Source: a virus
DNA length: 22,877 nucleotides
IMG/VR virus record: IMGVR_UViG_3300023179_000540
Coordinates: 1 to 22,877 of that record
Strand: one strand, 5' to 3'
A program made the position numbers and the translations under genes. This document shows, piece after piece, positions 2,392-13,679 of the stretch (its first letter is position 1; the number at the start of each line of letters is the position of its first letter). Below the pieces are notes generated by a model that saw only the letters and a program-made list of their open reading frames with translations, was not told where the DNA came from and did not search any database.

Positions 2392-4179
2392 TTATGCACC
2401 ACCTAATGCCGCACCAGCAGTTTGTCCACCTGCGGCACCACCACCTGCACCACCTGTTGGACTTGGAACACCAGCTGCACCAACTTCACCACCAATTGGT
2501 GGAGCGCCTGGCACACCTAAACCACCGCCTTGTTCTGCCGCTTGTATGTCACTTACAGTTTCAAGGTCAGTGCTTATGGCACCTGGTGTTACACCAACCG
2601 TGCGCAGATCAGCACCTTGAACCTTACTTTCTGGAGAATCTGTACCACGTTCTTCGTGCCACATCTTATCATTTTCAGCAAGTTCCATATCAGTAAGACC
2701 AAGATATTTCTTTAACATAAAACGCTTACTCAAATAATCAGTTTGATTGATTTGTGTAAATGCAGTGATTCGACCAGCATTTAATTCAAGTTCACGATAT
2801 GCGGCAAAGTTTTGTGGTTCAGTAAATTTAATTTCAAATAAGCTGTTGTCAAGGTTGAAACCACGATGTTTTAAAAACATCTTAAATTCTGTATCAAACT
2901 TTGGACTTATATAACGTTGTAATCTCTTGCAATATTCATTAAAACGATGCTCTTGTATAAGTGCAGTAGTTACTTTACCATCAACAAATGCACGGTCACT
3001 GTCTTCTGGACCAGTTGGTAGATAACTACTTGGAATACGAAGACTACGATACATCTTGTTTTGGAAATAACGCAAATCATCAATTTCACCAAGATTTTGA
3101 CCACCAGGTAGAACTTCTACAGATGAGCCACGACCTTCTGCGCTTTGTGGAAAGAAGAAATCTTCATTCATGCTCATAGGATTATATGAAGCATCCATTA
3201 AGTTACTACCACCACCACTTTGTGTTGGTATTCTGCGTTGATTAATTTCATTCTTTACACGTTCAACAAATTGCATTGCAAGATGTGCTGGCATGTTGCC
3301 AACATCAATCTTAAACATTCTGCGTTCTGGTGCACGACTGATACGATATATTAGAATTGCGTCTTCAAGCAATTCTTTTTGTTTGAATACTTTAAAAATT
3401 GCTTCAAATATACTAACACCGAATGGCCAGTTGACATCTAAACCTTCTGTTAAACTTAAATGAACAACGTGTTCTGCACCTACTGGAAACTCATTATTGC
3501 CAGCACCAAAACGTGTATTTGGTGAAAATACTTCACCACCTGCTGTGTAAGAACGTGATCCACCCATATAAGGAGCAAAAGCATAACTGTCATTTGGACC
3601 TGGTGGACGAGTAATAGTATTATTCTGTAGATTTGGATTCAAATCACGAATATAATAAATTTCAGGTTCTTTACCTTTAGATTCATTAACAATGACTTTG
3701 CTAACACGATTCATTTCAGTCCAGAACCACTTATAAGTTTCTGGATCACGAACAAATACTTGGTCACCATACTTTAGCGTATTACGGAAAATCTTAAAGA
3801 TACGTTGTTCAAAATCTTGTAGTTTACACCAAGACTTTAACTGTTCTTTAAGAATCATTACTTCATTTTCTGTAGCTTCTTCATTAAAATGAACATTAAA
3901 TGGTGTATGTGTTTCTTCACTGCGTTGGGTGCAGAACTCACTTAAAATATCAAGTGCGCTGTTAGCTTCACTATCTAAATCCATATTCTCATACTGAGTA
4001 TAACGGTCAATACGATTTGGATGACCACTATACACATCAGGTAACATAGATTGATAGTTACGATATGCAGCGTTTGCTTGTGAACCAAGATAATTGTAAC
4101 TGCTATAGTCTGTTACACTACCATTTACAGGGCTATATGAACCATCACTTACAATACGCCAATGTTTGCGCCAACTCAT
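2392..4179 (-). CDS. 20: Portal vertex protein gp20
   Basis: 595 aa (T4 gp20 is 524). It forms the dodecameric portal through which DNA is packaged and to which the neck and tail attach. The call rests on gp20-type blocks: NRIDRYTQYENMDLDSEAN near residue 60, LDILSEFCTQR, GDQVFVRDPETYKW, HVVHLSLTEGLDVNWPFG, YRISRAPERRMFKIDVGN, and the portal core SYNPMSMNEDFFFPQS followed by EVLPGGQNLGEIDDLRYFQN. RIPSSYLPTGPEDSDRAF comes next. The last 60 residues are a Gly/Ala/Pro-rich extension (GGAGGGAAGGQTAGAALGG) absent from T4. It heads the head operon, and a late-promoter match lies 20 nt upstream of its ATG at 4179. Confidence 0.96.
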   Translation of the reverse strand: MSWRKHWRIVSDGSYSPVNGSVTDYSSYNYLGSQANAAYRNYQSMLPDVYSGHPNRIDRYTQYENMDLDSEANSALDILSEFCTQRSEETHTPFNVHFNEEATENEVMILKEQLKSWCKLQDFEQRIFKIFRNTLKYGDQVFVRDPETYKWFWTEMNRVSKVIVNESKGKEPEIYYIRDLNPNLQNNTITRPPGPNDSYAFAPYMGGSRSYTAGGEVFSPNTRFGAGNNEFPVGAEHVVHLSLTEGLDVNWPFGVSIFEAIFKVFKQKELLEDAILIYRISRAPERRMFKIDVGNMPAHLAMQFVERVKNEINQRRIPTQSGGGSNLMDASYNPMSMNEDFFFPQSAEGRGSSVEVLPGGQNLGEIDDLRYFQNKMYRSLRIPSSYLPTGPEDSDRAFVDGKVTTALIQEHRFNEYCKRLQRYISPKFDTEFKMFLKHRGFNLDNSLFEIKFTEPQNFAAYRELELNAGRITAFTQINQTDYLSKRFMLKKYLGLTDMELAENDKMWHEERGTDSPESKVQGADLRTVGVTPGAISTDLETVSDIQAAEQGGGLGVPGAPPIGGEVGAAGVPSPTGGAGGGAAGGQTAGAALGGA

Positions 4180-4198
4180 TTGTGAAATCCTTGTAGAA

Positions 4199-8025: not shown

Positions 8026-9132
8026 CTAAAATGCCTGTCGATTTCTTAAAAAGTATTGTTTTGAGATTATAGTTTTATCAGCCAGTTGATTGCCATATAG
8101 TCGTGCATTATGTAAGCCTTCTGTATATATCTTGTAAGTGCCACTATCATGTTTTTTAATGTATTCTAATAAGCCTATTGCATCCTTGCTATTTTCATCG
8201 TTGGTATGAAAAAATTTCATTGCACCATTAATACTATACAAATGCGCATGTGGTATAGGTAATCTACCCATGTTTAAATTCCATGCAGCATAGTATTTGA
8301 CAAGTGCACCATGTTCATTCTTATCACGCCCTTGTATATCATGTATTAAATCTTCATTCAAATCGTGTAGCGATTCAAACCAACGCATTACCATATAACA
8401 TTGTTTTATATGTAATTGCGGTAAATCACTGCTGTAATAAAAATTTTCTTGATTACTGCCACTGTGATCAATTTGAACATCTGGGCAGAAATTATACCAA
8501 TTATTATCACGCAGTATCATTTTAGGTTTATCAACTGCCATGATATTACCACGATTTTTACCAGTCATGGTAATTAAAAAATCTTCCATGTGATTAGTAG
8601 AAAAATAACGATTGGTCTTGGTTAATTTTAAACTGCAATTAGGATGAAATATCCAATCTTGATTCAACTTTGAATAAAACTGCGCAACAGACTTGTGATT
8701 TACACGCACTACATTTATTTTTAAGTTTGGATAATATGTATCTTTAATATGTTGTGCATGTGCAATAGCATGTGGAATTTCTGGGTCATCAAACCAATCA
8801 CGTCGATCATATATCAATAACTCATCTACTATAAGTTTATTATCAATAAAGTATTGTAGAATAGTATAGCTATCATATCCACCACTATAATAAAGCGCAA
8901 CATAATCATATTTGTCACGGATCTGGTGGCAACGTATACTCATAAGTTGGTCCCAACTTAAATCTGGTTCAACGGTCCAATCAATGTTATCCCATGTATC
9001 TTCCATCCAATGAAATTTTATACGTGAAAAATCACCCTTGGTTCTATGTATAGCTTCTACCTTACTGTATACACGATTACCATCAACACTATAATAAATG
9101 TCATCGTTAGCAACGATATGAAACTTATTCAA
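8026..9132 (-). CDS. PP-loop ATPase (N-type ATP pyrophosphatase), specificity unknown
   Basis: 368 aa. The PP-loop SGGYDS is at residues 83-88 after a hydrophobic strand (YVALYY), followed by helix TILQYFIDNK and strand DELLIYDRRDW. This is the nucleotide-binding layout of the asparagine synthetase C-domain / QueC / ThiI superfamily, which adenylates a carbonyl or similar group with release of PPi. The first 75 residues and the C-terminal half (about 200-368) match nothing I know. It is the last gene of the accessory operon and overlaps the oxygenase gene by 8 nt. The start is TTG at 9132 inside that overlap, suggesting translational coupling; the next Met is residue 43. The pairing with an oxygenase suggests joint modification of a small molecule, nucleic acid or peptide, but no substrate can be named. 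Confidence 0.68.
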   Translation of the reverse strand: MNKFHIVANDDIYYSVDGNRVYSKVEAIHRTKGDFSRIKFHWMEDTWDNIDWTVEPDLSWDQLMSIRCHQIRDKYDYVALYYSGGYDSYTILQYFIDNKLIVDELLIYDRRDWFDDPEIPHAIAHAQHIKDTYYPNLKINVVRVNHKSVAQFYSKLNQDWIFHPNCSLKLTKTNRYFSTNHMEDFLITMTGKNRGNIMAVDKPKMILRDNNWYNFCPDVQIDHSGSNQENFYYSSDLPQLHIKQCYMVMRWFESLHDLNEDLIHDIQGRDKNEHGALVKYYAAWNLNMGRLPIPHAHLYSINGAMKFFHTNDENSKDAIGLLEYIKKHDSGTYKIYTEGLHNARLYGNQLADKTIISKQYFLRNRQAF

Positions 9133-9724: not shown

Positions 9725-10480
9725 CTACCAATTAACTTTTGTTCTTAAACTCTCAATAAAAGAATTAATTATAACACCTGTTACGGCAATGACAATTAAT
9801 ATAACATACATTATTGCAACATCTAATTTATTTTTAACTTCTATCATGTAACTACCAAGACCATAATAACCACCAATAGCACCATATGCTACTTCTAGTG
9901 AAACTAACACTCTCCACATATAAGTCCAACTCATACTGCTTAGTGAAAGTAATGTAGGCGCAGCGGCTGGTATATACACTCTTGTTATACTTTCATAAAA
10001 ATTCCATTTTAGATTTGCAATTTGTTTATCCCATGTTAACCTTACTGTATCAAACGCACCTAACAATTGGTAACTCATTGACCAAAAAACACTAAACACC
10101 ATTACTATTAGCAATGAAAGTTTACCTAACCCTAATAGCAGTGTAACAAATGGAATAATAACAAAACTTGGCAGCGGCATAAAGTAACTGCAGTATCTTT
10201 CAAATATTTTTCTAAAGTTATGTGATACAAAACAAACACTCACAACTATACTAACAATAACTAATGCTATCAACCATGCTTCCAACAATGTTAATAGTGT
10301 TTGTGAATAAGTTGACCAAAAAAGTTTTGTTGGTATGACTTGGATTGCAGTAACAGCAACGGTAAACAAATCTGGAAAAATTATTGGCTCATGTGCAATA
10401 TAATAAAAACATTGCCATACTAACAACAATAATAGGATAGCAACAATATTAGTTCTCCATTTGTTTAATAAATTTATCAT
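9725..10480 (-). CDS. ABC transporter permease (SsuC/TauC-type)
   Basis: 251 aa inner-membrane permease. Hydrophobic segments lie near residues 12-28, 62-86, 105-136, 177-200 and 221-242. The cytoplasmic coupling loop that docks on the ATPase (EAA loop) is at about 149-173: QIANLKWNFYESITRVYIPA followed by APTLLSL, where the family has the 'G.....+..+PaalP' pattern. The tail WRVLVSLEVAYGAIGGYYGLG and the closing ...FIESLRTKVNW closely follow SsuC/TauC/NMT1-associated permeases. It overlaps the ATPase by 32 nt, starts at ATG 10480 with AAGGAAG upstream, and is followed 9 nt later by the oxygenase. A single permease gene would act as a homodimer in the importer. Confidence 0.9.
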   Translation of the reverse strand: MINLLNKWRTNIVAILLLLLVWQCFYYIAHEPIIFPDLFTVAVTAIQVIPTKLFWSTYSQTLLTLLEAWLIALVIVSIVVSVCFVSHNFRKIFERYCSYFMPLPSFVIIPFVTLLLGLGKLSLLIVMVFSVFWSMSYQLLGAFDTVRLTWDKQIANLKWNFYESITRVYIPAAAPTLLSLSSMSWTYMWRVLVSLEVAYGAIGGYYGLGSYMIEVKNKLDVAIMYVILIVIAVTGVIINSFIESLRTKVNW

Positions 10481-11069
10481 ATGTTACTTCCTTGTCTAGG
10501 TTAATAAAATTGTTTTGGGTTAACAGCTTTATAGAATTACCAATATATTTTGCTTCTGACAAATCATGGCTTACCCACAAACAACTTAAATTTAAATCTG
10601 CAATCTTCTTTTTAAAATCACTTAATACTGTATAACGTGTTACACTATCTAATCCATTTAATGGTTCATCACACAATAGCAATTTACATCCGCTATACAT
10701 TGCTCGTATAAGTGTAAATCTCTGTCTTTGACCGCCACTTATTTTGTTTGGATAGCAATCTAACAGTTCTAATAAGTTCCAATCATATACCGCACCAATA
10801 TAATCCTTACTGCATACCAAATTTAAATTCTGTTTAATTGTATACCATGGAAAAAGTTGATGGGTATCCTGAAACACTGTGAAACTTTTACTAGATGTTA
10901 TTTTACCGCTATATGGAATGTTATTGGCAATTGCATTTAGTATGCTAGTCTTACCAATACCACTAGCACCCATTATAACTACGATTTCATTATTTCCTAC
11001 CGTTAAATCAATGGGCGAGAATAAATCTCGCCCACCAAAATTAACTGTAAGATTAATAATATCTAACAT
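10449..11069 (-). CDS. ABC transporter ATPase subunit
   Basis: 206 aa from the ATG at 11069, which I prefer to the TTG at 11087: it sits 2 nt after the binding-protein stop and begins the family's first strand (MLDIINLTVNFGG). All catalytic motifs are present: Walker A GASGIGKTS (34-42), Q-loop VFQDTHQLFPW with Gln67, signature SGGQRQR (111-117), Walker B LLLCDEP with Asp134 and Glu135, D-loop NGLDS and H-loop VSHD with His168. It should therefore hydrolyse ATP. It is short compared with SsuB/TauB (about 240-260 aa), ending soon after the H-loop region, so it is a compact version lacking C-terminal extensions. Gene order is binding protein, ATPase, permease. Confidence 0.93.
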   Translation of the reverse strand: MLDIINLTVNFGGRDLFSPIDLTVGNNEIVVIMGASGIGKTSILNAIANNIPYSGKITSSKSFTVFQDTHQLFPWYTIKQNLNLVCSKDYIGAVYDWNLLELLDCYPNKISGGQRQRFTLIRAMYSGCKLLLCDEPLNGLDSVTRYTVLSDFKKKIADLNLSCLWVSHDLSEAKYIGNSIKLLTQNNFINLDKEVTYDKFIKQMEN

Positions 11070-11071
11070 TA

Positions 11072-12067
11072 TTAATGTTTTACCCAACTACGATTGTAAA
11101 TCGCATCGGCACCAATCTTTTTATTTGGTCCTGTTAATACACCGCTATCAATCATAATCTGAACTGTTGCAAACCCTGGTATTAATGAAGTATCATATAC
11201 ATCACGGTTTTCAACTTTCATATCATATACTTCTTTAGCTGTAACATTTGGAATATTATCACGCTTGATATATTCTTCAATAATTGGTAGTGGTTCTTTT
11301 TCATATGCCTTAATAGCTTCAACTTCTGCTTCAAACAAGGCTTGTGCAAGTTTTGGATTTGCTTCTAACCACTTTGTTGTAGCATATAGTGCAGTTGGAT
11401 AACCAAAACTTACCTTATTATCTGGTTTAGCTACGACATGTGCTTTACCGTTTTTTGTAAGAATGTTTTGACCTGGTGAACCAAGTATTGCACAATCTAC
11501 GGTAGGTTTTTCAGTGCTCATAGTAGCTAGAATTGCATCACGTGCCATCACAACAATATTGCTATTCAACTTTTCACTTTCTTTAGGACCGTATGCTGCC
11601 ATTGCATATTCACGTAACACAATATGGTCACCGCCATTAATTGCCTTCATAGCAATCTTGGTATCAGCTTTAATATCATTCATAGTTTTAATGCTTGGGT
11701 TTGCACATACTAACCAATTCTCAAGAGTTTGTACGCCACTTATAACCTTGACTTTAGTTGGGTCTTTGTCCCAAATATATGCAAATGTTCCAATGCCGCC
11801 ATAGTTTACATCTATATTACCTACAAGCATTTCTTGGTTAGCAACAGTATCATCTGCAATATCTACATATGTTACTTTTAAATCTTTAATACCATGCTTT
11901 GCGGCAATGACTGGTAGTAAATCACCAATCTTGTAAAGTAGTGGTTGTGTGGTGGCTTGTTTAAGTTTACGATTAAACTTAATTTCATTTGCATCAGCAA
12001 ACGCAGTTGTTGCCGCAATGGTTGCTGCGGCAGTAATAAGAAATAGTGTTTTTAGTCTGTTAAACAT
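11072..12067 (-). CDS. Periplasmic substrate-binding protein, NMT1/SsuA/TauA-like
   Basis: 331 aa from the ATG at 12067, preceded by a strong Shine-Dalgarno (AAAGGAG). The longer TTG start at 12115 is rejected because it lies inside the terminator hairpin. The N-terminus is a textbook Sec signal peptide: MFNRLK, hydrophobic TLFLITAAATIAATT, cleavage after AFA. The mature part shows SsuA/TauA/NMT1 features: KQATTQPLLYKIGDLLPVIA, then VTYVDI, a 'GNIDVNYGGIGTFAYI' block (substrate-site region) and VISGVQTLENWLVCANPSIK. Later come KMNDIKADTKIAM-like strands and FGYPTALYATTKWLEANPKL. Members bind sulfonates, taurine, nitrate, bicarbonate or thiamine-precursor pyrimidines; which one cannot be told here. 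It is the first gene of the operon, behind a structured leader. Confidence 0.9.
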   Translation of the reverse strand: MFNRLKTLFLITAAATIAATTAFADANEIKFNRKLKQATTQPLLYKIGDLLPVIAAKHGIKDLKVTYVDIADDTVANQEMLVGNIDVNYGGIGTFAYIWDKDPTKVKVISGVQTLENWLVCANPSIKTMNDIKADTKIAMKAINGGDHIVLREYAMAAYGPKESEKLNSNIVVMARDAILATMSTEKPTVDCAILGSPGQNILTKNGKAHVVAKPDNKVSFGYPTALYATTKWLEANPKLAQALFEAEVEAIKAYEKEPLPIIEEYIKRDNIPNVTAKEVYDMKVENRDVYDTSLIPGFATVQIMIDSGVLTGPNKKIGADAIYNRSWVKH

Positions 12068-12075
12068 ATTTTTTT

Positions 12076-12083
12076 CTCCTTTC
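12076..12083 (-). promoter_or_regulatory. Shine-Dalgarno of the binding protein, with upstream anti-SD
   Basis: GAAAGGAG lies 9 nt before the ATG at 12067. It is perfectly complementary over 8 nt to CTCCTTTC at 12157-12150 on the same RNA, directly at the 3' strand of the leader's closing stem. The CTCC can pair either with the leader's 5' GGAG or with this SD, a typical translational switch arrangement. Confidence 0.55.
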
Positions 12084-12103
12084 ATAACGTTAACAGATAA
12101 CAC

Positions 12104-12130
12104 AAAAAACATCAATTAATAATTGATGTT
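12104..12130 (-). terminator. Terminator-like hairpin before the binding-protein gene
   Basis: On the minus strand, AACATCAATT pairs with AATTGATGTT (12130-12108; about 9-10 bp, loop about 3 nt), followed at once by six T residues (12109-12104). The stem is AT-rich, so moderate in strength, but the shape is that of an intrinsic terminator. It stands between the structured leader and the SD, 40 nt before the ATG, where an attenuator would be. Confidence 0.5.
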
Positions 12131-12153
12131 AAAGTATTAAATTTTACAAGAAA

Positions 12154-12265
12154 GGAGCTTGCAGTGTGGGATACTGCTACGGTTGGCGTTCTACGTGTAT
12201 CACAGTAGTAAAAGAGTAATTACTCTAGGCGTCATATATGGTCCGAGGTCTTGCGGCCTTGCTCC
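12154..12265 (-). promoter_or_regulatory. Riboswitch-like structured leader of the ABC operon, class unknown
   Basis: Minus-strand RNA closed by GGAGC (12265-12261) and GCTCC (12158-12154). Inside are four hairpins. (1) GGCCG/CGGACC with one bulged A and loop CAAGACCT (12258-12240). (2) AGAGT/ACTCT with loop AATT (12226-12213). (3) CTAC-T-GTG, ATA, CAC-GTAG (12208-12191). (4) GCAGT/ACTGC with loop ATCCCAC (12177-12161). The two joining stretches both carry ACGCC (GACGCCT and AACGCCA). The late promoter at 12271-12277 would place +1 on the first G of the closing stem. A terminator-like hairpin and an anti-SD follow before the transporter start. The layout is that of a cis-regulatory aptamer plus expression platform. 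I do not match it to TPP, cobalamin, guanidine or other classes from memory. Confidence 0.55.
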
Positions 12266-12270
12266 AAAAA

Positions 12271-12277
12271 TATTTAT
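12271..12277 (-). promoter_or_regulatory. T4-type late promoter of the ABC transporter operon
   Basis: The minus strand reads AATAAATA, matching NATAAATA. It overlaps the TAA stop of the upstream nuclease gene. Placed at about -13 to -6, it predicts transcription starting at 12265, exactly the first base of the leader's closing stem. Confidence 0.6.
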
Positions 12278-12792
12278 TATGAACAAGCTATTGAAACAAA
12301 ATCTTTGTTTAATGACCAGAAACGATCATAATCCATGATTGCCCAACGAATATCTTTATATGTATAAAGCATATGATATTCTACAAATAGCGGAACATCA
12401 TAATGTTGGTCAAATTCTAATGCCACAAACTTACCAATGCGTGTAAACTTCATAAACAAAATATTAAAGTCACCTTCATCAGCAACATCCATAAGCTGAT
12501 CAATCCAATTGTTTAATTGTTTACACTCACCTTGAAATAGTTGATGAAACGGAAAGTCAGCATAGTTTTTACATTCGCAGTTAAACTTTGGGAAACTTTG
12601 ACCAGGTATAATATCGCCCTTGAATGAACGTATTTGCCCTTCGTGTAGTATTTCTTTACGTTTTGTATTGGCACCACCGATATATGCGCCACTGTTAGGA
12701 ACACGTATAAAAGGTTCGCCATATAGTTCTGTAAGGTGTTTGGCAACTTCACGTTCCCAACTATTACCTTTTGTTTTACTTTTACTTGTCAT
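12277..12792 (-). CDS. PD-(D/E)XK nuclease, Holliday-junction-resolvase-like
   Basis: 171 aa. The motifs of restriction-endonuclease-fold nucleases occur in order: KGNSWEREVAKHL with Glu13, VPNSGAY (31-37), a loop with KGD (Asp60), and FNCECKN with Glu73 and Lys75. This E...D...ExK pattern with a preceding R-x-x-x-S-G segment (RVPNSG) resembles archaeal/phage Holliday junction resolvases and related DNA nucleases. A role in recombination or DNA end processing fits its place after gp46/gp47 and the radical SAM gene. Its ATG overlaps the radical SAM stop in an ATGA, so the two are translationally coupled. T4 uses an unrelated resolvase (gp49). A VRR-NUC-like or RecB-like nuclease is the alternative. 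Confidence 0.65.
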   Translation of the reverse strand: MTSKSKTKGNSWEREVAKHLTELYGEPFIRVPNSGAYIGGANTKRKEILHEGQIRSFKGDIIPGQSFPKFNCECKNYADFPFHQLFQGECKQLNNWIDQLMDVADEGDFNILFMKFTRIGKFVALEFDQHYDVPLFVEYHMLYTYKDIRWAIMDYDRFWSLNKDFVSIACS

Positions 12793-13679
12793 ACAAAATA
12801 TTCTTCTCTAAACCACTGTTGTCCAAAATTAGTTTTATCATTATTAACACTACACGAACTAACACAATTACTTACTGGATTTTGTGTTGTCCACGAATTT
12901 ACTATTTGCGGAAAATCTTGCAATAAAAATTTTGTATTACTAAGCCAACAGCATGGTAATAATTGCCCACTATAATTCATGAATATAGTTTTTTCATTTA
13001 GTGCATAGCACGAAATTTTATTATTATACTGTACGGTTGGTTTATAAATTTCTGGTGGTTGTAATTCATAAAAGGGTCGTTTAATAAAACGTTTACTTAC
13101 TTTGGCACGAAATGCTACAAATCCTAATTCTTTAGCTAGTTTCATACACTCATCTACCTGATGCTCGTTATGTTTGAATACTAACATATCCCAATGCGCA
13201 CGACCACCAACCTTAATAAACTCAATAGCATTTATAATAATTTTATTCCAATTGGTATTACGGCGATATAAATGATTGGTATCTTCTAGTCCATCAATAG
13301 AAAATACACAGTAATCACGCTCACGATTAAGTCGTTGTCCAAGTGCATTCCAAAAATGCGTATTACGTAGACTACCATTGGTATTCATACCTAATGTGAT
13401 TTCTGGATTAATTTCACGAAACCAATCATATATTTGAATTGCTTGTTTGTGCGCAGCTGGATCACCATAATTACCACACATAAACATTTTGTCTAGTTGT
13501 CTTACAAAATCTAGTGATAAATTTTCTTTTATTGTTTGTAATTTTAAATCAGTGATGCGAATATTTTTATTAATAGTATATCCATCATGTTCATATCTTT
13601 CGCACTGTGGACAAGCTGCATTACACTTACTAGTAGGTTCTAAGTGCAATACACGAACATCTGCTATATCAAAACTCAT
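12789..13679 (-). CDS. Radical SAM enzyme with SPASM/twitch-like C-terminal cysteines
   Basis: 296 aa. The [4Fe-4S]-SAM motif CxxxCxxC is Cys19, Cys23, Cys26 in LEPTSKCNAACPQCERY. Barrel strands follow, including MFMCGNYGDPAAH (the GGEP-like SAM-binding strand, here GDP) and LGMNTNGSLRN. The C-terminus has five cysteines (224, 243, 244, 272, 276), including LLPCCWLSN and NCVSSC, the pattern of an auxiliary Fe-S cluster as in SPASM/twitch proteins. These often modify peptides, sometimes sugars or cofactors. It is coupled to gp46 upstream and the nuclease downstream by 4-nt ATGA overlaps. No precursor peptide gene is visible next to it. The substrate is unknown. Confidence 0.85.
   Translation of the reverse strand: MSFDIADVRVLHLEPTSKCNAACPQCERYEHDGYTINKNIRITDLKLQTIKENLSLDFVRQLDKMFMCGNYGDPAAHKQAIQIYDWFREINPEITLGMNTNGSLRNTHFWNALGQRLNRERDYCVFSIDGLEDTNHLYRRNTNWNKIIINAIEFIKVGGRAHWDMLVFKHNEHQVDECMKLAKELGFVAFRAKVSKRFIKRPFYELQPPEIYKPTVQYNNKISCYALNEKTIFMNYSGQLLPCCWLSNTKFLLQDFPQIVNSWTTQNPVSNCVSSCSVNNDKTNFGQQWFREEYFV

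Follow-up and report, generated by a model that had tools for sequence, protein, structure and literature searches.

A leader RNA before auxiliary operons of uncultured jumbo phages, candidate for a new riboswitch class

The viral DNA analysed here, referred to as the window, is a stretch of 22,877 nucleotides (positions 1 to 22,877 of IMG/VR record IMGVR_UViG_3300023179_000540). Its minus strand carries an operon whose first gene (11072-12067) encodes a solute-binding protein of 331 amino acids that resembles SsuA/NMT1 (TIGR01728 at E 5e-8, below the cut-off; NMT1_2 at E 1.5e-3). An ABC transporter ATPase (10449-11087; PF00005, E 2e-19) and permease (9725-10480; PF00528, E 2e-11) follow, then a protein of context cluster 8 that has no Pfam match and is common to the operons of the related loci L003, L049 and L286 (9125-9715), and a PP-loop ATPase-like protein (8026-9132). 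The predicted structure of the solute-binding protein is too poor to infer a ligand (pLDDT 59), and the protein has no match in cultured phages. Its single close relative in viral contigs, at locus L003, is 80% identical, and there the whole operon is kept together with the leader RNA described below. No match to the PP-loop protein was found in Pfam, PHROG or cultured phages; the structures nearest to its predicted fold (pLDDT 81) are LarE-type ATP pyrophosphatases, with weak similarity (TM 0.3-0.4). Upstream of the operon, positions 12789-13679 encode a radical SAM protein whose nearest profile, that of tungsten-cofactor oxidoreductase maturases, scores far below its cut-off. Eight loci have relatives of this protein in the vicinity of the leader.

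A structured leader RNA of 112 nt precedes the operon (12265-12154; all leader features are on the minus strand). A T4-type late promoter, AATAAATA, at 12278-12271 is followed by five T, and T4-late spacing predicts +1 at 12265, as a preliminary description of this DNA had proposed. The 5' end, GGAGC (12265-12261), is one strand of the closing helix P1; the other, GCUCC, lies at 12158-12154, and four hairpins stand inside this GGAGC/GCTCC stem. P2 is the hairpin AGGCC-GCAA-GACCU (12259-12246), which includes a conserved C.A mismatch. P3, a helix missed by the preliminary description, pairs CGG (12245-12243) with CCG (12182-12180) and links the flank of P2 to that of P6. Within it lie GACGCC (12233-12228), in which GACGC is invariant, the P4 hairpin AGAGUAAUUACUCU (12226-12213), the junction UUUAC (12212-12208), the P5 hairpin with its apex GUGAUACAC (12208-12191) and the nearly invariant AACGCC (12190-12185). 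The UUUA of the junction is unpaired and 100% conserved, and the following C (98%) closes P5. GACG is able to pair with the CGCC of 12190-12185 to form a helix P3b. The P6 hairpin, GCAGU..ACUGC, occupies 12177-12161.

Downstream of P6, CTCCTTTC (12157-12150) is complementary to the Shine-Dalgarno sequence (SD) GAAAGGAG (12083-12076), which lies 8 nt ahead of the ATG at 12067-12065. The corresponding RNA segment, CUCCUUUC, is a candidate anti-SD that overlaps the 3' strand of P1, the CUCC being common to both. An AT-rich hairpin (12130-12108) occupies the spacer between anti-SD and SD and leads into a run of six T (12109-12104). The promoter, stem, hairpins and SD complement named in the preliminary description were thus all located in the window. 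Single-sequence folding of the window leader is mildly above chance (z -2.1 for 112 nt, z -2.7 for 200 nt), and the case for the leader therefore rests on comparison.

The leader at L003 is 79% identical to that of the window, and its P5 and P6 differ by compensatory changes (in P6, ACAGU/ACUGU stands in place of GCAGU/ACUGC). A profile made from these two sequences and run over pattern-fetched loci recovered further leaders at E 8e-25 to 5e-5; several reached E 7e-14 or better, and some precede quite different genes. Pattern scans and iterative profiles brought the number of distinct copies to at least about 87, every one from a viral contig. With a covariance model (R1), at least 85 matches (84 distinct) were obtained in 82 sources, all uncultured viral contigs, and the family is larger than these counted copies. 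The window leader scores 92 bits against R1 (E 2e-18), a model whose seed included it. For this reason an nhmmer profile was trained without the window's subgroup, the NMT1 subgroup; it recovers the window at 12268-12152 with E 1.1e-17.

Among 22 larger viral records searched whole, which are possibly incomplete, 20 hold one copy and one holds two neighbouring copies; the remaining record has none and had been a chance pattern match. At L296, a porin-like gene is preceded by a second, degenerate copy that has lost P4 (2680-2778, minus strand; 43.8 bits). A portal gene, found in 14 of the 21 motif-bearing records, encodes a protein 58-62% identical to the portal of the window, so in the records checked the family is known from one clade of uncultured, T4-like jumbo phages. 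The nearest cultured portals, in jumbo phages such as PA5oct, are 46-49% identical to that of the window. In one phage record of 342,865 bases, the stretch fetched round the leader also contains a permuted tmRNA gene of alphaproteobacterial type (L404, 2366-2809). A search of the core pattern in 85,000 bacterial species genomes returned four chance matches, unsupported by profile or model. Model searches of 369 gammaproteobacterial genomes, run with strict filters and no positive control, found no copy, and one family member searched against cultured phages gave no DNA match.

The fold is conserved throughout the family. In a MAFFT alignment of the copies, 92.8% of cells pair across seven helices, and 23 of 32 pairs show double changes. 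None of 500 shuffles reached any of five covariation measures on this alignment, and sliding the helix partners as a control lowered pairing to 29-48%. An alignment fitted to the covariance model, which leans towards that model, gave 94.9% pairing and 25 pairs with double changes. In an R-scape-like test, written for this analysis, substitutions were redistributed along a FastTree tree; at E<0.05 against this tree-aware null, 12 column pairs were significant, all of them in, or extending, four helices. Ten are pairs of the model, and 17/24 and 90/115 extend P2 and P5. Four significant pairs lie in P4 and three in P6, and P5 covaries at 88/118, 89/117 and 90/115. Covariation in homologous leaders, on which the preliminary description had made its proposal depend, is therefore present above shuffle, slide and tree-aware controls.

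Individual helices differ in how they vary. P1 exchanges GC/GC for GU/AC or AC/GU; its extension beyond GC/GC averages 1.15 pairs vs 0.68 in a shuffled null (0/1000), part of which would precede +1. The five-base-pair closing stem of the preliminary description holds in the window's subgroup, but most members have 2-3 transcribed base pairs (GC/GC, often AGC/GCU). P2 occurs as AGGCC/GACCU in the window's subgroup and elsewhere as ACGCC/GACGU or GCGCC/GACGC, with double changes from A-U to G-C and from C-G to G-C, around an invariant C.A mismatch (C13 and A28 of the alignment). P3 is compensated at L237 (CAG/CUG) and L263 (GGG/CCC), and it is preferred for this reason to an alternative helix from RNAalifold, ACG(95-97)/CGU(108-110), which is broken in L263 (CCCU). 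Since the strands of P3b (GACG/CGCC) are invariant and show no covariation, they are described here as putatively paired. P4, P5 and P6 vary freely in sequence (e.g., GGGU/ACCC and GACAU/AUGUC in P4). Across the family, the C.A mismatch and the unpaired GACGCY, UUUA and AACGCC hardly vary.

Two kinds of variant indicate that the three-way junction behaves as a unit. At L148 (about 3990-4195, minus strand), a single P3 (CGG/CCG) encloses two tandem copies of the inner P3b-P4-P5 module. In the short variants L258, L273, L275, L278 and L287, P2, P4 and P5 are kept, and CGG, CCG and P6 are lost together; all five retain, 3' of AACGCC, a GC with which P1 might be closed. The junction would then be the functional core of the RNA. 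It is nearly certain that the leader belongs to a real, new structured RNA family.

The position of the RNA relative to its promoter is also conserved. TAAATA stands ahead of 83 of the 85 copies listed and TAAGTA ahead of the other two (background 0.0005 per position), and TAAATA lies 5-6 nt before the GC of P1 in 71 of the 83, a nearly fixed spacing. A TATAAATA-like box thus stands some 6 nt ahead of the predicted +1, as in T4-type late promoters. In T4 late promoters, spacing from the late box sets +1, and the predicted start of these RNAs is accordingly the first base of P1. The reading of the motif as a 5' UTR common to late genes was abandoned, because it is present a single time per genome record. 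A predicted start at +1 in nearly all copies and a fold that ends a median of 26 nt before the start codon would also suit a constitutive, cap-like 5' element that exposes the ribosome site and shields the late message against decay dependent on its 5' end. Such a stabiliser or translation enhancer would profit all late mRNAs, yet it serves one operon per genome record; the conservation of loops and junction exceeds what stability needs, and an SD-blocking structure has been retained in the NMT1 subgroup. This explanation is accordingly considered improbable.

The SD-blocking structure is clearest in the NMT1 subgroup (the window, L003, L274, L049 and L286), in which the 3' strand of P1 doubles as the anti-SD. 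The CUCCUUUC/GAAAGGAG pairing becomes CUCCUUCU/AGAAGGAG in L049 and L286 through two compensatory changes. Cognate SD/anti-SD duplexes in this subgroup average -13.8 vs -5.7 kcal/mol for non-cognate ones (0/1000). In the other 68 leaders the values are -2.76 cognate vs -2.16 kcal/mol non-cognate (0/201), and the complementarity is obvious in about 15 of the 68. The mutually exclusive pairing claimed for P1 and SD/anti-SD therefore holds, with compensatory changes, in all five NMT1-type leaders, but is a weak trend elsewhere. Forced-state energies, which exclude P3 and tertiary contacts and are indicative only, are (P1 closed/SD blocked, in kcal/mol) -47.8/-46.4 for the window, -46.6/-47.1 for L003, -48.5/-56.5 for L274, -30.4/-34.8 for L286 and -31.5/-35.4 for L049. 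The blocked state is thus favoured by 0.5-8 kcal/mol in the four leaders other than the window, as would be expected of an ON switch lacking its ligand. Each of the five NMT1-type leaders also has UCUGUUAA, or a sequence close to it, 5' of the SD; its complementarity to the opening codons AUGUUUAACAGA (MFNR; 12098-12056 in the window) gives a further possible hairpin round the SD and start codon.

The intrinsic terminator read into 12104-12130 by the preliminary description is not supported. The stem is AT-rich, and although relatives keep the spacer hairpin at the same place, L003, L274, L049 and L286 have no equivalent T-run directly after it.

The genes behind the leader are diverse. By sequence cluster, the first genes (n=82) are DctP-like (29), TctC-like (16), PP-loop (9), NMT1-like (5), hexapeptide transferase-like (4), DUF2061 (3) and SBP_bac_8 (3), with two each of TauD-like, TctA, porin-like and unassigned exported proteins and five singletons. 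DctP, TctC, NMT1, SBP_bac_8 or TctA is the first gene in 55 of 82. The PP-loop family is the commonest neighbour, present in the examined surroundings of 61 of 85 loci, frequently with two or three members close to the leader. DctP proteins usually reside in the periplasm. The phage DctP-like proteins (e.g., L367, 3796-4734; about 29 first genes) start MKxxKIRWVIAHEP without an obvious signal peptide and may have a cytoplasmic role or another export route. At L247, L256, L338 and L353, the gene behind the leader encodes a hexapeptide transferase-like protein or a fatty acid desaturase rather than a transporter, which suggests envelope changes under the same leader control.

Related transporter genes lacking the leader, which would speak against the original proposal, did not appear among the related operons found, five of five carrying it. 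The proposal that the RNA controls uptake of its own ligand is right in placing a late leader before transporter genes; the same RNA also precedes desaturase, TauD-like and acyltransferase-like genes. With several unrelated solute-binding families and enzyme genes behind the leader, "uptake of that ligand" is too narrow. Where the contig allows, a close same-strand gene nearly always follows the leader, and no known ribozyme matched it at E up to 10. Both observations count against a ribozyme, trans-acting small RNA or other function for which the place before operons would be incidental; the conserved junction with its mismatch would suit such an RNA, a reading that is given very little credence here. 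The leader is very likely a cis-regulator of auxiliary operons.

Covariance models of Rfam 15 gave no match to the window leader at the gathering threshold and unrelated noise only at E up to 10. In seven other phages the leader copies were also unmatched, the tRNA and tmRNA hits lying elsewhere in those loci. The preliminary description could not assign the fold to a known class, and this judgement stands after comparison with NMT1/xanthine-I, ykkC/guanidine, TPP, THF, glnA, manA and wcaG. No earlier report of the leader RNA was found in the open-licence literature. To our knowledge, phage riboswitches are rare, and those reported belong to classes shared with bacteria. Competition between P1 and an anti-SD is familiar from translational riboswitches, e.g., the TPP and SAM classes in proteobacteria. 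The leader shares with these a P1 whose 3' strand serves as, or lies next to, the SD-sequestering strand; in contrast to them, its candidate aptamer fold is new and its P1 is the 5' terminus of an RNA made from a phage late promoter. The NMT1 motif (xanthine-I riboswitch) is named for NMT1-type transporter genes such as the one behind the window leader, but Rfam finds no match here and NMT1-type first genes are 5 of 82 in the family.

Structured RNAs have been described in related settings. The manA and wcaG motifs (RF01745, RF01761) and PhotoRC-II are candidate regulatory motifs of cyanophages (PMC2864571). Like the present leader, manA and wcaG are structured, lie in what are presumed to be 5' UTRs of metabolic genes in T4-like phages and are candidate regulators of host-metabolism genes. 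They differ from it in sequence and fold, and they are known from cyanophages and marine metagenomes and, for manA, from gammaproteobacteria as well (PMC2864571). The glutamine riboswitch (glnA RNA) is likewise a phage-borne RNA, present in Melnitz, Mosig and similar T4-like phages that infect aquatic bacteria; its fold and ligand are known, and in Melnitz it is tied to a tmRNA gene (PMC9004378). The window leader and its family do not match it.

The leader is a conserved, structured 5' UTR domain with covariation, as expected of a riboswitch. At the level of sequence, comparison establishes its fold, its promoter start, its place before transport and metabolism operons and, in the NMT1 subgroup, the alternative SD pairing. 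The leader is probably a translational riboswitch of a new class. In the proposed mechanism, late transcription would begin at the first base of P1, and the RNA would fold so that P1 encloses P2, the P3/P3b arm with its three-way junction, and P6. The junction, made of P4, P5 and the conserved GACGCY, UUUA and AACGCC, would bind a putative ligand and thereby stabilise the fold and P1. With its 3' strand held in P1, the SD would be free (ON). Without ligand, CUCCUUUC in the NMT1 subgroup would pair with GAAAGGAG around the spacer hairpin and block translation (OFF). That the signal is a small molecule, that its binding turns translation on and that other subgroups work in this way are assumptions of the model.

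Near-invariant unpaired bases and a C.A mismatch beyond what the helices need argue for a riboswitch, as do the covariation, the restriction to a single operon in each jumbo-phage record, the transporter-type first genes, the unit-like behaviour of the junction and the P1/SD competition in the NMT1 subgroup. Against it count the short transcribed P1 of most members, the weak SD complementarity outside the NMT1 subgroup and the diverse downstream genes, which fit one transported ligand poorly. Most riboswitch classes occur in bacteria, and the absence of a bacterial copy from the genomes searched is a further point against. Several of these features would suit a leader to which a late phage or host RNA-binding protein binds at the conserved junction, switching translation of the auxiliary operon: the copies checked come from one phage clade, each genome record has one such operon, the downstream genes are diverse, and conserved single-stranded bases serve a protein equally well. 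The compact junction, the C.A mismatch and the tandem duplication at L148 are more typical of aptamers, and a protein-binding leader is considered unlikely. A bolder version of the riboswitch reading, offered tentatively, is a class that arose in jumbo phages and is confined to them; it would respond to some general metabolic cue from the dying host cell and decide, late in infection, whether the phage's own uptake and metabolism operon is translated, whichever transporter family had been captured.

The leader RNA occurs once per genome record, before the operon by which these giant phages alter the nutrient uptake of their hosts. If it binds a ligand, the phages control auxiliary genes by metabolite sensing of their own, and the identity of that ligand would show what these uncultured phages require of their hosts late in infection. 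The family would then represent a new kind of gene switch, apparently exclusive to phages, acting on genes that steer host metabolism.
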